DNA of 64,000 nt from Thiothrix fructosivorans. Lineage in GTDB: Bacteria; Pseudomonadota; Gammaproteobacteria; Thiotrichales; Thiotrichaceae. Below the pieces are notes generated by a model. That model had not been told where the DNA came from and did not search any database. It saw only the letters and a program-made list of their open reading frames with translations. Shown here piece by piece: positions 36,841-43,805 of the stretch (position 1 is its first letter; every line of letters begins with the position of its first letter). The DNA lies in assembly GCF_017349355.1 (NCBI RefSeq), contig NZ_JAFMPM010000008.1, forward strand, positions 620,001-684,000. Direction: 5' to 3'. A program made the translations under genes and the position numbers.

Positions 36841-37980
36841 TTGAACAAGCAAGCACTGCTGGTGCTGGAAGACGGGAGTGTTTTCCACGGGCGTTCCATC
36901 GGCTGTGATGGCCAAACCACAGGTGAAGTGGTCTTTAATACCGCACTGACAGGCTATCAGGAAATCCTGACTGACCCGTCGTATTCACGTCAAATCGTCA
37001 CGCTGACTTACCCGCATATTGGTAACGTCGGTGTCAATCAGGAAGATTGCGAATCTACCCAAGTCCACGCGGCTGGGCTGATCGTGCGCGATGTGCCAGC
37101 GGTTTACAGTAGCTGGCGGGCAGAAGAATCACTGCCTGACTATTTAGCACGCAACAACGTTGTCGCGATTGCCGACATCGACACACGCCGTTTGACGCGC
37201 ATCTTGCGTGAAAAAGGCGCACAACGTGGCTGCATCATGGCAGGTGAAAACTTGTCCGTGGATGTGGCACTGGACGCGGCACGTTCCTTCCCCGGCTTAA
37301 AAGGCATGGATTTGGCGAAAGAAGTCACCGTCAAAACCAGCTATGTGTGGACAGAAGGCAGTTGGCAATTAAATCCCGCCACCCCACGCCCATCAACCGC
37401 TGACAATGCCGAATTCAATATCGTCGCTTACGATTACGGTATCAAAACCAATATCTTACGCATGTTGGTGGATCGTGGTTGCCGCGTCACCGTTGTGCCT
37501 GCACAAACCCCCGCCGCAGATGTACTGGCGATGAAACCAGATGGCGTATTCCTCTCCAACGGTCCCGGCGACCCAGAGCCATGCGATTACGCCATTGCTG
37601 CAATCCGCGAAGTATTGGAGCAAAAAGTCCCCACGTTCGGTATCTGTCTCGGTCATCAATTACTCGGTTTAGCCAGTGGCGCGAAAACTGTCAAAATGAA
37701 ATTCGGGCATCACGGTGCAAACCATCCGGTGCAAGATTTGGACAGCAAGCGCGTGATGATCAGCAGCCAGAACCACGGTTTTGCGGTCGATGAAACCACG
37801 CTGCCTGCCAACGTGCGTGCTACGCATCGCTCCTTGTTTGATGGAACGTTGCAAGGCATCGAACGCACTGACTGCCCCGCAGTGAGTTTCCAAGGACACC
37901 CCGAAGCCAGCCCCGGCCCGCACGACGTAGCCCCTGTATTCGACCGTTTCATTGAGATGATGAGAGCCGCACATGCCTAA
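36841..37980 (+). CDS. carA: Carbamoyl-phosphate synthase small (glutaminase) subunit
   Basis: 379 aa from a TTG start at 36841 with GGAGG 5 nt upstream. [20 protein letters not shown] begins it. The class-I glutaminase triad is visible: Cys in [13 protein letters not shown], with His and Glu in [10 protein letters not shown]. It supplies ammonia from glutamine to CarB. Its stop overlaps the carB start by 8 nt. Confidence 0.97.
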
Positions 37981-40900
37981 ACGCACTGACATTAAAAGCA
38001 TTCTGATTATTGGTGCAGGCCCGATCATTATCGGTCAGGCGTGCGAATTCGACTATTCCGGTGCGCAAGCGTGTAAAGCCTTGCGTGAGGAAGGCTACCG
38101 CGTCATTCTGGTCAACTCCAACCCCGCGACCATTATGACCGACCCGAACATGGCGGATGCGATTTACATTGAGCCAATCCGCTGGGAAACCGTCGCCAAA
38201 ATCATTGAAAAAGAACGCCCTGACGCATTATTGCCAACAATGGGTGGGCAAACCGCGCTCAATTGTGCGCTTGATCTTTCCCGCCACGGCGTGCTGGAAA
38301 AGTTCGGTGTGGACATGATCGGTGCGAACGAAGTCTCCATCGACATGGCAGAAGACCGCCAGAAATTCAAAGTAGCGATGGATGAAATCGGTTTGGAATC
38401 CGCCCGTTCCGGCGTAGCCCATACGATGGACGAAGCCCGTGCGGTGCAAGCCACCCTTGGCTTCCCCGTGGTTATTCGCCCCTCATTCACGATGGGCGGC
38501 AGCGGCGGCGGTATTGCCTACAATAAGCAGGAATTTGAAACCATCGTGGCGCGTGGCTTGGATATGTCGCCGACCACCGAAGTTTTGCTGGAAGAATCCC
38601 TGCTTGGCTGGAAAGAGTATGAAATGGAAGTCGTGCGTGACCGCAATGACAACTGCATCATTATCTGTTCCATCGAAAACCTTGACCCGATGGGGATTCA
38701 CACGGGTGACTCGATCACGGTAGCCCCTGCGCAAACCCTGACCGACAAGGAATACCAGTTACTGCGCAATGCGTCGATTGCAGTTCTGCGCAAAATCGGT
38801 GTCGATACTGGCGGCTCTAACGTGCAGTTTTCGGTCAACCCGAAAAACGGGCGCATTATCGTGATCGAAATGAACCCGCGTGTATCGCGCTCTTCCGCAC
38901 TGGCTTCCAAAGCGACAGGCTTCCCGATTGCGAAAGTCGCGGCGAAACTGGCGGTTGGCTACACGCTGGATGAATTGCGTAACGAGATTACCGGCGGGGC
39001 AACGCCTGCGTCATTCGAGCCGTCCATCGACTACGTTGTGACCAAAATCCCGCGTTTCACCTTCGAGAAATTCCCGCAAGCCGACTCGCGTTTGACCACG
39101 CAAATGAAGTCCGTGGGCGAAGTCATGGCGATGGGGCGCACCTTCCAAGAGTCGTTCCAGAAAGCCCTGCGCGGTTTGGAAACCGGTATCGACGGCTTGA
39201 GCGAACGTATTGATCCACAAGACCCGGATGCGAAAGACACCTTGCGTCGTCAACTGACCGAAGCCAGTTCCGAACGTATTTTGTACGTGGCGGATGCCTT
39301 CCGCTTGGGTCTGAGCATCGAAGATTTGTTCGCGCAAACCAGCATTGACCCGTGGTTTTTGGTGCAAATCAAAGAGCTGGTCGATATGGAAAATGGTTTG
39401 AAAGACCGTTTGCTGAATAGCATTAGCGTCGACGAAATGCGGGCATTGAAGCGCAAAGGCTTCTCCGACCGTCGCTTGGCTAAACTGTTGCACGAAACCG
39501 AGAAAACGGTGCGGGTGGCACGTCACAAGCTCAATGTGCGCCCGGTTTACAAGCGCGTCGATACCTGCGCGGCAGAATTTGCCACCAATACCGCGTACAT
39601 GTATTCCACTTACGAAGAAGAGTGCGAATCCAACCCGACCGACCGTAAGAAAATCATGGTGTTAGGCGGCGGCCCTAACCGTATCGGGCAAGGCATTGAA
39701 TTCGACTACTGCTGCGTCCATGCCGCGTTAGCGTTGCGCGATGATGGCTTTGAAACCATTATGGTCAACTGCAACCCGGAAACCGTTTCCACCGACTACG
39801 ACACCTCCGACCGTCTGTATTTCGAGCCGCTGACGCTCGAAGACGTGATGGAAATCGTCGATCTGGAAAAGCCTTACGGCGTGATCGTGCAATACGGTGG
39901 GCAAACCCCACTGAAACTGGCGCGTGATCTCGAAGCTCTGGGTGCGCCGATTATCGGTACCTCGCCCGATTCCATCGACTTGGCGGAAGACCGTGAACGT
40001 TTCCAACAATTGATCCACAAACTCGGCTTGAAACAGCCGCCGAACCGCACCGCTAGAAGCATTGAAGAAGCGGTACGTTTGGCAGACGAAATCGGCTACC
40101 CCTTGGTGGTGCGTCCGTCTTACGTGCTGGGCGGACGGGCGATGGAAATCGTTTACCACGAAAACGAATTGCGCCGTTACATGACCACAGCGGTGTCCGT
40201 GTCGAATGATTCGCCGGTATTGCTCGACCGTTATCTGGATGATGCGATTGAAGTGGACGTGGACGCGATTTGCGACGGCGAAAACGTGCTGATTGGCGGC
40301 ATTATGCAGCACATCGAACAGGCGGGTATTCACTCCGGTGACTCGGCATGTTCCTTGCCACCGTATTCCTTGCGTGCGGACATCCAGGATCAATTGCGCG
40401 AGCAAATGGTACGCATGGGCAAAGCCCTCAACGTTATCGGCTTGATGAACGCGCAATTTGCCATCAAAGGCGACGATGTTTACGTGCTGGAAGTGAACCC
40501 GCGTGCCTCACGTACCGTGCCATTCGTGTCCAAAGCGATTGGTCGTCCGCTGGCAAAAGTCGCGGCACGTTGCATGGCTGGTCAAAGCTTGGCAAGCCAG
40601 AATACACTGAACGAAATCATCCCGTCCTACTACGCGGTGAAAGAAGCGGTATTCCCGTTCATCAAATTCCCCGGCGTTGACCCCATCCTCAGCCCAGAAA
40701 TGAAATCCACGGGCGAAGTGATGGGCGTTGGCAGAACGTTTGCTGAAGCCTTCGGGAAAGCGCAATACGCAGCGGGTGAAGTTTACCCAACGTCCGGCGT
40801 GGCGTTCATCAGTGTGCGGGAAGCTGACCGCCGTCACCTGAAAGAAGTGGGTGATATGTTGATCGGACAAGGTTTCAAAGTCGTTGCCACCCGTGGTACG

Positions 40901-41203
40901 GCACGCGAATTGCAGAACGTCGGGGTAAAATGCGAAATCGTTAACAAAATGCGTGAAGGTCGTCCTAATATCGTTGACATGATCAAGAACGAGGAAATCG
41001 ACCTGATCGTGAACACGACCGAAGGTGAGCAATCGACGCGTGACTCGTTTGAGATTCGCCGCGAAGCCTTGCAGCACAAAGTGACCTACACCACCACGAT
41101 TGAGGGTGCGCGGGCGTTGTGCATGGCGATGGCCTACACTGACAGTGAACAGGTTTACTGTTTGCAAGATTTACATCGGGAAATAACAGAACAAGGGGTT
41201 TGA
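37973..41203 (+). CDS. carB: Carbamoyl-phosphate synthase large subunit
   Basis: 1076 aa, the normal length. Two homologous ATP-grasp halves both start [14 protein letters not shown]... and [14 protein letters not shown]..., and both carry [16 protein letters not shown] motifs. The last 130 residues form the MGS-type allosteric domain ([15 protein letters not shown]). It makes carbamoyl phosphate for arginine and pyrimidines and tunnels ammonia from CarA. Full length and undamaged. Confidence 0.98.
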
Positions 41204-41207
41204 AGCG

Positions 41208-41693
41208 ATGAGTACAAGACCACCGCTAACATTAAAAGGCTCAGAACGCTTGAAGGCTGAATTGCAGCGTTTGAAAACCGAAGATCGCCCGCAAATTATT
41301 CAGGCGATTGCGACAGCGCGGGAACACGGTGATTTGAAAGAAAATGCTGAATATCACGCAGCGCGTGAGCAGCAAAGTTTCTGTGAAGGACGCATCAAGG
41401 AGCTGGAAAGCAATTTGTCGATGGCGCAAATCATTGATGTTGCTGTGGTCGGTGCTGCCAACCCCGGCAAAGTCGTGTTTGGTGCAACGGTTGAGCTGGA
41501 AGCTGTCGAGTCCGGTGAAACCATCACCTACCAAATCGTGGGTGACATTGAAGCGGACATTAAGCACAACCGTATTGCTATTTCTTCGCCGATTGCGCGT
41601 GCCATGATCGGTAAGGAAGAGGGCGATGTCGCGGTGGTGCAAGCGCCCAGCGGTGTGCGTGAATACGAAATCGTTGCGGTTACTTACCAATAG
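41208..41693 (+). CDS. greA: Transcription elongation factor GreA
   Basis: 161 aa. The N-terminal coiled-coil hairpin holds the acidic tip ([20 protein letters not shown]), followed by the C-terminal globular FKBP-like domain. It helps backtracked RNA polymerase cleave its transcript. It starts 4 nt after carB, forming the common carAB-greA transcript. Confidence 0.97.
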
Positions 41694-42298
41694 TGGCTAA
41701 TCACTTTACCCACATCGGCTTGCTGCAACACGGCGCGGTGGAAGCTGGGGACGTATTCTGCGGTGAATTGGAAACCCCGTTAAGCAAAGCGGGCTGGAAA
41801 CAGCTTAAGCAAGCTTTCGGAAAGGCTGGTGCGGACTGGGATGCCGTTATTACGTCACCGCGAATGCAATGTGCTGCCTTTGCCGAATGGTTTGCGCAAA
41901 AGCATGATTTGCCGCTGGTGCGGGATGAACGCTTGCGGGAAATCCATTTCGGTGAGTGGGAGGGGCATACCCCGCAAGCCGTTATGTCAACCGATACCGA
42001 AAAGTTAGCCGAATGGTGGGTGAATCCTGCCCAAGTTACCCCGGCGGGGGGCGAGAGTTTTGGCGATTTTCGCGCTCGCGTCTTGGATGCTTGGACAGAA
42101 TTAGCGCGGGCTTATCGGGGTGAACGGGTACTAGTGGTGACGCACGCAGGCGTGATCCGCGTCATTATGGCGCACGTTTTGCAAATGTCCGATGAGCGTT
42201 TGTTGGCATTGAATGTTGAATACGGTGCGTTGACGCGTTTGCGGGTGTTGCGTGACCGTGGTGGCGAGTGGGCAAGCCTGATTGCTCACGGTTGCTAA
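41693..42298 (+). CDS. CobC-like histidine phosphatase with altered RHG motif
   Basis: 201 aa from a GTG sharing one base with the greA stop. The phosphoglycerate mutase fold is clear (LREIHFGEWEGHTP, VVTHAGVIRVIM with the second His). The first motif reads LLQHGAVEAGD, so the Arg of RHG is Gln, and in TSPRMQCAAFAEW the second phosphate-binding Arg is also replaced by Gln. CobC removes the 5'-phosphate of alpha-ribazole in cobalamin assembly. Position next to a CobS-like gene supports this, but two active-site arginines are missing, so either the enzyme is weak or its role has changed. Confidence 0.78.
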   Translation: MANHFTHIGLLQHGAVEAGDVFCGELETPLSKAGWKQLKQAFGKAGADWDAVITSPRMQCAAFAEWFAQKHDLPLVRDERLREIHFGEWEGHTPQAVMSTDTEKLAEWWVNPAQVTPAGGESFGDFRARVLDAWTELARAYRGERVLVVTHAGVIRVIMAHVLQMSDERLLALNVEYGALTRLRVLRDRGGEWASLIAHGC

Positions 42299-43005
42299 TG
42301 TTGAGAACACTGCGCCGCTCGTTTTTAGTGGCGTTGTCAGTGTTGACGTTAATGCCAGTACCCGCTGTTGAGACGTTTTCGGTGGAGGAAAAAGGTCTGG
42401 GGTTGATCTGGTTTCCTGCGTTGGGAGCGTTGATGGGTGGGTTACTGGCGTTAGCCGCTTGGCGGTTGGAAGGGATTGAGCCGATGTTAGCATCGGTGAT
42501 TTTGCTGACTATCTGGCTATTTATCAGTGAGCTGCACCATTTAGATGCGTTGGCTCACAGTATTACAACGTGGTTTTTTGGTGAAAGTGCGTTGCCCAAC
42601 CCGCATTTTGGGGTTATGGGCGTCATGGCGCTTGTCATGATGGTGAAGTTTGCTGCGCTTTCGGTATTGATCGAATACAAGTTGTGGCCGTACATCTTAA
42701 TGGCACCGCTGGCGGCGCGTTTATTGGTGATGGCGTTGATTGGGTTTACCCCGATTGCCCCAGCCGAAACGCAGGCGCAGGAATTCCGTGCTGAATTTCC
42801 TTATGTGGCTTTGTTTATTTGGTTGTTATTGGCATTACCGGTGGCATTGGTCGCGGGTATTCCGCTGTTTGCTTTGTTTGTGATGCTGTTGTTAATTCGT
42901 TTGCGGATGAGGCAAACCAGTGGCGGGCTGAAGTGGGAAGCGCTTGGTGCAAGCATTGTATTGCTCGAAGCGGTTGGCTTGTTTGTGGCGGCATTGACGG
43001 CTTGA
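42298..43005 (+). CDS. Divergent CobS-like membrane protein (cobalamin-5-phosphate synthase family)
   Basis: 235 aa from ATG 42298, which overlaps the previous stop. Six or seven TM helices and the segments IWFPALGALMGGLLAL and FGVMGVMALVMMVKFAALSVL match the CobS pattern. CobS joins alpha-ribazole to adenosylcobinamide-GDP in the membrane. The catalytic motif, normally HLDGLADTxDG, reads HHLDALAHSITTW here. The second and third aspartates are gone and the loop after it is shorter. It is therefore either a diverged paralogue or a decayed enzyme. Confidence 0.65.
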   Translation: MLRTLRRSFLVALSVLTLMPVPAVETFSVEEKGLGLIWFPALGALMGGLLALAAWRLEGIEPMLASVILLTIWLFISELHHLDALAHSITTWFFGESALPNPHFGVMGVMALVMMVKFAALSVLIEYKLWPYILMAPLAARLLVMALIGFTPIAPAETQAQEFRAEFPYVALFIWLLLALPVALVAGIPLFALFVMLLLIRLRMRQTSGGLKWEALGASIVLLEAVGLFVAALTA

Positions 43006-43367: not shown

Positions 43368-43805
43368 ATGCAAACCTTTTCAGCCGAAGAAATGAGCGCC
43401 TTGACACGCGCGGTGATCAGCCACATGGACGAGTGGAAAATCAGCGCCGAACATATGTTGACGATTTTGGGATTGGATGCAGAAGTTCGCCCACGTCACT
43501 TACAGCAATACCGCCAAGGCGATAAAGCCTTCCCACAAACGCCGGAAATGATGGATCGGATTGATCACATTGTCGGTATTGCGGATGCGTTACGCACCAC
43601 CTTCCCGTTCAGCAGCCAAATGCGGGTGATGTGGTTAAGCAAGCCGCATCGCCGCTTTCAGCGTCGTGATCCGTTAACGGTGATGTTGGAGGAAGGGGTG
43701 GATGGCTTGATGCGTGTGCGAATAGAAGTAGATTGCGCGTATGGCTATGCGATTAACGACGCACTACATGCCGCCGCAGCAGAGAAGAAAAAAGCGGTTG
43801 CTTAA
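43368..43805 (+). CDS. MbcA/ParS/Xre-antitoxin-like protein (DUF2384-like)
   Basis: 145 aa. The N-terminal half resembles an Xre-like helical domain (VISHMDEWKISAEHMLTILG, LQQYRQGDKAFP). The C-terminal half, RVMWLSKPHRRFQRRDPLTV followed by MLEEGVDGLMRV, fits the MbcA/ParS toxin-binding fold (W-L-P...P-L-ML-EG). Such proteins neutralise RES-domain NAD-degrading toxins, but no RES gene is present. The partner here may be the 92-aa gene just upstream, or it may act as a lone regulator. Confidence 0.6.
   Translation: MQTFSAEEMSALTRAVISHMDEWKISAEHMLTILGLDAEVRPRHLQQYRQGDKAFPQTPEMMDRIDHIVGIADALRTTFPFSSQMRVMWLSKPHRRFQRRDPLTVMLEEGVDGLMRVRIEVDCAYGYAINDALHAAAAEKKKAVA

Follow-up and report, generated by a model that had tools for sequence, protein, structure and literature searches.

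The window is a stretch of 64,000 nucleotides of the Thiothrix fructosivorans genome. It contains two adjacent genes encoding a CobC-like protein and a CobS-like protein, which are termed pC and pS respectively (Table 1). The greA stop codon TAG (41691-41693) overlaps the pC start codon (41693-41695), forming TAGTG at 41691-41695, and the pC stop codon TAA (42296-42298) overlaps the pS start codon (42298-42300), forming TAATG at 42296-42300. The pS stop codon ends at 43005. The pC and pS frames of the window contain no internal stop codon. Re-reading of the window sequence indicates that the preliminary description placed the pair exactly, at 41693-43005, and that the frames are stop-free as described there. 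A frame error or a pseudogene is ruled out for the window pair by the open frames and the overlapping starts. The two small ORFs downstream of pS recur at this place in nine of the 14 other pS-bearing genomes, and neither of them matches a Pfam family above the cut-off. The 145-aa ORF (43368-43805), which is preceded by the 101-aa ORF, shows a sub-threshold match to the C-terminal domain of the Xre/MbcA/ParS antitoxin.

Table 1. Genes at and around the pC-pS locus of the window
Feature	Position	Strand	Remark
carA-carB	36841..41203	+	5' of greA, same strand; named by eye
greA	41208..41693	+	directly 5' of pC; named by eye
pC, CobC-like, histidine-phosphatase fold, 201 aa	41693..42298	+	GTG start
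pS, CobS-like, 235 aa	42298..43005	+	ATG start
Two small ORFs, 101 and 145 aa	43060..43805	+	3' of pS; not clearly within the system

pC contains a histidine phosphatase domain (145.3 bits against PF00300), and its PDB relatives by sequence are 3hjg and 6e4b (CobC). It resembles CobC, the alpha-ribazole / AdoCbl-P phosphatase (PF00300, TIGR03162), in domain, in length, and in the catalytic His, the Glu of REIHFGEW and the second His of VVTHAG. In contrast, LLRHG of CobC is replaced by LLQHG and SSPxxRC by TSPRMQC, so that both Arg residues of the phosphate pocket are replaced by Gln. The Arg residue of RHG and the second Arg residue are those which we take to hold the phosphate in the histidine phosphatase superfamily, and pC has neither of these two residues by which a CobC phosphatase is recognized. 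These two replacements, which had been noticed in the preliminary description for the window protein, are present in all 14 pC proteins of the genus. In the alignment, both Arg residues are present in 59/59 other CobC rows, and Gln is present at both positions in 11/11 pC rows used, all of which retain His, Glu and His. Of the near-invariant CobC columns, 20/25 are kept in pC and five are lost, two of them being the Arg to Gln replacements. Another 29 columns are invariant in pC yet rare in normal CobC, partly as a result of common descent within one genus. The score of pC against NCBIfam TIGR03162 (ribazole_cobC), 156.4 bits, is just below the cut-off of 162.9, which is also missed by an RHG-containing CobC from family f22 described below (160.0 bits). 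Residual or altered catalysis by pC is possible, given that His-Glu-His, including the nucleophilic His, is intact.

pS contains a CobS domain according to Pfam (69.1 bits against PF02654, cut-off 23.2), but it scores far below the cut-offs of all four NCBIfam equivalog models listed, the best score being 93.1 bits against a cut-off of 252 and the score against TIGR00317 being 42 bits against 110. It has SELHHLDALAHSITT where CobS has TGGLHLDGLADSADA. H80 and D82 (Salmonella numbering) are kept, and D86 and D89 are replaced by His and Thr respectively, so that only D82 remains of the Asp residues of the CobS motif H80xDxxxDxxD89. D86 and D89 are absent from 15/15 pS proteins, which bears out the claim of the preliminary description that two of the three Asp residues of this motif are gone. 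The damage is, however, greater than described there, because KDP is replaced by NPH, G228 by Trp, D229 by Glu, and a conserved Glu further on by Val. The window pS accordingly departs from the second CobS motif, G225xxGDxxG232, by this Trp and Glu. D82, D86, D89, the KDP Asp, G228 and D229 are each present in 59/59 reference CobS rows. Among the 13 pS rows used, D82 is kept in all 13 and D229 in three, and D86, D89, the KDP Asp and G228 are kept in none. The G228 position is occupied by Trp in 13/13 rows, and the D229 position by Glu in eight, Asp in three, Ser in one and Pro in one. pS thus resembles CobS (adenosylcobinamide-GDP ribazoletransferase, PF02654) in full-length homology, in H80, D82 and a conserved Lys and Arg, and in structural Gly and Pro residues, and differs from it in the loss of D86, D89, the Lys and Asp of KDP, G228 and the later Glu from all pS rows used, and of D229 from most. 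The near-invariant CobS columns are kept in pS at 26 of 45 positions and lost at 19, and 40 columns are invariant in pS yet rare in normal CobS, again partly as a result of common descent in a single genus. Most structural residues of both proteins are retained, in line with the earlier remark that the folds are otherwise well kept. The predicted structure of pS is a modest helical model (mean pLDDT 66), and no PDB relative of pS is found by profile at E up to 1.

These comparisons are defined by the rows used. The CobS and CobC references consist of the loci returned with the highest scores and are not sampled at random. The 59 CobS rows include 16 normal Thiothrix copies and exclude eight degenerate CobS rows from family f22; with these included, D82, D86 and G228 would no longer be universal. 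The CobC reference does not contain four divergent phosphatases in which RHG and the second Arg are retained. The CobS tree and conservation counts include 13 of the 15 pS proteins (G015, identical in its letters to G011, and G005, with a broken frame, were left out), and those of CobC include 11 of the 14 pC proteins (G001, G006 and G015 were left out as close copies). A1 drew on 11 of the 15 pS proteins. Within the rows examined, an alignment with relatives, as proposed in the preliminary description, indicates that the substitutions of pC and pS are not common in presumed active CobC and CobS. The residue losses are not due to chance, because they are fixed in the orthologues at positions that are conserved in 59/59 references.

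According to a mutational study of S. Typhimurium CobS (PMC8092220), each of the D82A, D86A, D89A and D229A mutations abolishes cobinamide-dependent growth that requires CobS, and the H80A mutation only impairs it. The full-length homology and the retention of H80, D82 and the His-Glu-His set of pC are what would be expected if the substitutions had left pC and pS with CobC and CobS activity. It is, however, scarcely credible that they have this activity, because three residues at which alanine is not tolerated in Salmonella, D86, D89 and D229, are conserved in every reference CobS row, and because pS would then act as CobS in a genome that has neither CobU nor CobT (G013, see below).

A search of the T. 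fructosivorans genome with PF02654 gives two CobS proteins, pS of the window (68.6 bits) and a copy on contig C6 (173.6 bits). The latter is a normal CobS with HLDGLADSADA, encoded at 611 kb of C6. A search with PF00300 likewise gives two places, pC and a normal CobC with RHG and SSPSRRC, which is encoded in a cobU-cobT-cobC cluster at 617-620 kb of C6. The second, normal pair that had been suggested as something to look for is therefore present, and pC and pS are paralogues of it. This result rules out that pC and pS are the sole CobC and CobS of this genome. No match to CbiB is found in this genome and MetH is found, so that the organism looks like a cobinamide salvager. No cobalamin riboswitch is found at the window locus or in 19 kb around the normal cob set, and its absence from both places is uninformative as to control by B12. 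Several other arrangements of cob genes are seen in the genus. CobU, CobT and normal CobS are each present twice in G004 and in G006, and in the former a cobalamin riboswitch (L173, 12732-12876) lies a few kb from CbiB, which belongs to the second cob gene set of that genome. Another type of CobC-like phosphatase, in which RHG is kept and REAGYG is present in place of E[IM]xFG, is encoded in G005, G008, G002 and G013 (L075, L077, L079 and L084), and in G008 no other protein matches PF00300.

pS is present in 15 of 16 Thiothrix genomes, with 62-80% identity to the window pS in the other 14, and pC in 14 of 16. By title, the matches are from Thiothrix lacustris, T. caldifontis, 'Ca. Thiothrix singaporensis', two Thiothrix MAGs and one gammaproteobacterial MAG. 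Outside the genus, 20 genomes from other genera of the same family give at most 36% identity to pS. In the class, 92 of the 369 genomes searched (T. fructosivorans included) have a match to pS, and none except that of T. fructosivorans exceeds 37% identity, which is where normal CobS also falls; individual residues were inspected in only part of these matches. The order carA-carB-greA-pC is conserved in all 14 pC-bearing genomes, the window included, and pS is next after pC in 13 of the 14 genomes with both (the G005 frame being interrupted by two TGA codons). In the remaining one, G014, pS is located on another contig, unlinked to pC. In G003, pS lies about 60 bases after greA and pC is absent. 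G008 has neither gene, and a convergent frame, HsdR-like by eye, lies after its greA; the pair is therefore dispensable at least in this genome, which has the longest branch in the carB and greA trees (no outgroup). The coupling of pC and pS is not absolute, and the exceptions in G003 and G014 do not support an obligate complex. greA and pC overlap in TAGTG in the window and likewise in 13/13 other pC-bearing genomes. The TAATG overlap between pC and pS is present in only three of these 13 (G009, G006 and G001), and the two genes are separated by about 110 bases in G005, G007 and G013, so that coupled translation of pC and pS is not general. The carAB-greA neighbourhood points to co-expression at most and is no evidence of function. 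carA is much less diverged than greA between some genomes (dS 0.22 vs 1.10 between G003 and G010), which suggests recombination across the carAB region (36841-41693 in the window, and in relatives).

The dN/dS values, determined by the Nei-Gojobori method, are 0.03-0.09 for pC (with one pair at 0 and one saturated) and 0.055-0.14 for pS (with one pair at 0). Those of normal cobC, normal cobS, carA and greA are 0.04-0.15, 0.05-0.18, 0.01-0.10 and 0-0.08 respectively. The values come from 12 chosen pairs, drawn from 14 genomes for pS (without G005 and G008) and 13 for pC, and many of these pairs have dS above 1, where the ratio is rough; apart from the zeros, pairs with dS below 0.6 give 0.03-0.08 (pC) and 0.06-0.09 (pS). 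For G004 and G006, with two normal CobS each, the best match to the own copy was taken, and some cobS pairs may mix copies. pC and pS are under strong purifying selection, with dN/dS values as low as those of their normal paralogues. The pair thus combines loss of catalytic residues, purifying selection and the presence of an intact paralogue in the genome, as a pseudoenzyme under selection does.

The preliminary description left two readings side by side, a shared new role and a relaxed need. The former is supported, as far as sequence can support it, by the genus-wide presence of the pair, its single gene order in 13 of the 14 genomes with both genes, the fixation of the key losses and the purifying selection. 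The latter is contradicted by dN/dS values of mostly 0.03-0.14, which do not exceed those of the normal paralogues, and by the normal cob set in the genome. If pC and pS were decaying duplicates heading for loss, the absence of catalytic residues, the absence of both genes from G008 and that of pC from G003 would be explained. The pS frame of G005 with its two in-frame TGA codons would also be explained, though these stops may reflect either a sequencing error or a lost gene; this assembly is 91% complete and its pC contains an undetermined residue. Decay is nevertheless hardly to be expected, because besides the low dN/dS values 14/15 pS frames are free of stops, and the same two Arg to Gln replacements and the overlap of the greA stop with the pC start are maintained in 14/14 pC.

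G013, which is listed as 100% complete, bears on the relation of the pair to cobalamin nucleotide-loop assembly. No CobU, no CobT and no CobS besides pS are found in this genome. It keeps pC, pS and a normal CobC (L117), the last of these being retained though the other three enzymes are not found, and it has MetH, so that it presumably imports whole cobamides. Retention of the pair after loss of the pathway genes indicates that its role is probably outside the nucleotide-loop pathway, a conclusion that rests on this one genome, in which a normal CobC remains. It also weighs against a role in corrinoid handling, without excluding such a role. In such a role pC and pS would be non-catalytic partners or regulators of the normal CobC and CobS, either by forming hetero-oligomers that tune the membrane complex or by binding corrinoids during salvage. 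This is rather unlikely in our estimation. It is consistent with the origin of both proteins in the pathway, with the published association of CobS and CobC (PMC8749415), with the presence of CobU and CobT in 14/16 and of MetH in 16/16 genomes of the genus, with the salvager-like appearance of T. fructosivorans, and with the absence of the pair from G008, the second of the two genomes that lack CobU and CobT. Against it stands G013, which keeps the pair without CobU, CobT and a normal CobS.

A second lineage of degenerate CobS is found in another gammaproteobacterial family, f22. In 8/8 genomes of three genera (G056, G203, G311 and G402-G406; loci L149, L153 and L154-L161), a degenerate CobS is encoded beside a CobC with RHG. 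D82 of this CobS is replaced by Met in three genomes, Lys in three, Val in one and Glu in one, D86 is replaced by Asn in 8/8, and G228 is changed in 8/8. D89 and D229 are kept. Four of these genomes also have a normal CobS, and in the other four (G056, G402, G403 and G404) no second match is found. The dN/dS values for eight pairs are 0.05-0.17 for the degenerate CobS and 0.09-0.14 for its CobC partner. The f22 pair therefore resembles pC-pS in being a conserved and constrained CobC-CobS pair whose CobS lacks essential Asp residues. It differs from pC-pS in that its CobS has lost D82 and D86 instead of D86, D89 and mostly D229, in that its CobC keeps RHG, and in that, in the two genomes read, it lies beside AmpD and a CbiB/AmpE-like gene. 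The gene order in these two genomes is queA-like, AmpD-like amidase, CbiB/AmpE-like, cobC, degenerate cobS, glutathione-peroxidase-like and Peripla_BP_2 (BtuF-like). Five of these proteins were assigned by Pfam in one genome (among them the amidase by PF01510 and the CbiB/AmpE-like protein by PF03186 and PF17113), and queA and the peroxidase were named by eye. The f22 CobS of G311, the only one scanned, passes an NCBIfam CobS equivalog cut-off (264.9 vs 252), so that f22 CobS may lie closer to activity than pS does, and the case for its inactivity would rest on D82 and D86. In the AU test, a single clade of the CobC partners of the Thiothrix and f22 lineages is rejected (p 0.0097), but a single clade of Thiothrix pS and f22 CobS is not (p 0.415). 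A single origin of both degenerate lineages is thus rejected by the CobC partners and not by CobS, and two separate origins are likely, though without proof.

If the pair had been converted into enzymes that catalyse a different reaction, a similar combination of lost and conserved residues might be expected. The His-Glu-His set of pC could act on a substrate that is held differently, and H80, D82 and the conserved Lys and Arg of pS could form a new active site, to which the new pS invariants Ser, Glu and His located before HLD and the Trp at G228 could be added. The many ancestral columns kept and the 40 pS and 29 pC columns that have become invariant, in part by common descent, also agree with such a conversion. 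It is nevertheless unlikely, though it deserves some weight. Of the four Asp residues essential to CobS, no pS retains D86 or D89, and D229 is missing from 10/13. The D229 position varies within the genus among Glu, Asp, Ser and Pro, as would not be expected of a new catalytic site. The neighbours that stay constant are carAB and greA, and the pair is accompanied by no metabolic genes that would make up a new pathway.

The residues required for CobS activity and both pC Arg residues are lost, and the structural residues are mostly kept. We infer that neither pC nor pS performs its ancestral step of nucleotide-loop assembly, and, less certainly, that a non-catalytic part of the ancestral system, anchoring and recruitment, has been kept. 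According to a report on membrane association of these enzymes (PMC8749415), the association of CobC with liposomes depends on CobS, an excess of CobS dissipates the proton motive force even when it is the inactive D82A mutant, and CobC relieves the membrane stress caused by CobS. pS may therefore be an inner-membrane anchor that recruits pC, as published for CobS and CobC on liposomes. Maintenance of the domains by selection while catalytic residues are lost would be expected if the anchoring and recruiting part is kept for another purpose. Loss of both Arg residues from one pocket in which His-Glu-His is retained suggests that the pC ligand has shifted from a phosphate ester to something less anionic, which the pocket, no longer holding phosphate, would bind. 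We consider it somewhat better than an even chance that pC and pS descend from cobC and cobS as paralogous pseudoenzymes shared across the genus, and that together they would form a complex at the membrane whose binding or regulatory function is not part of nucleotide-loop assembly.

A parallel for pC is provided by XcAP of the flea, which represents small-molecule binders of the histidine-phosphatase superfamily that lack catalytic residues and are inactive, as stated in PMC10728186. pC and XcAP are alike in superfamily and in the absence of catalytic residues, inactivity and small-molecule binding having been demonstrated for XcAP itself. They are unlike in that XcAP is a salivary protein of the acid-phosphatase type that has lost the catalytic His and has no CobS partner, whereas pC keeps this His and has lost the Arg pair. 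A more far-reaching idea is that exaptation has turned CobS-CobC, on more than one occasion, into a membrane device without catalysis, in which pS would be a leak or pore and pC a ligand-sensing cytoplasmic regulator. Dissipation of the proton motive force by the presence of CobS, not by its activity, and its counteraction by CobC would then have become the function, the phosphate-blind pocket of pC would sense the ligand, and in f22 the CbiB-like AmpE would join the set. This idea is very unlikely.

No published description of the pC-pS pair was found in the titles and abstract openings of the open-licence papers listed on CobS, CobC, pseudophosphatases and Thiothrix genomics, and neither 'cobalamin' nor 'cob' occurs in the main text of a Thiothrix genome comparison (PMC8570282). 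The degenerate state of pS has consequences for annotation. Pfam labels pS as CobS (69 bits vs 23), and cobamide synthesis can be wrongly predicted from this label, for example in G013, whose only CobS-family match is the degenerate pS. It can be mispredicted in f22 as well, since the one f22 CobS scanned passes the equivalog cut-off. A conserved pseudoenzyme pair derived from successive steps, one partner a membrane protein and the other soluble, also offers a natural way to test why nucleotide-loop assembly is linked to the membrane. Should the pair still assemble there in the absence of catalysis, it would allow what CobS and CobC do beyond catalysis to be studied in isolation.
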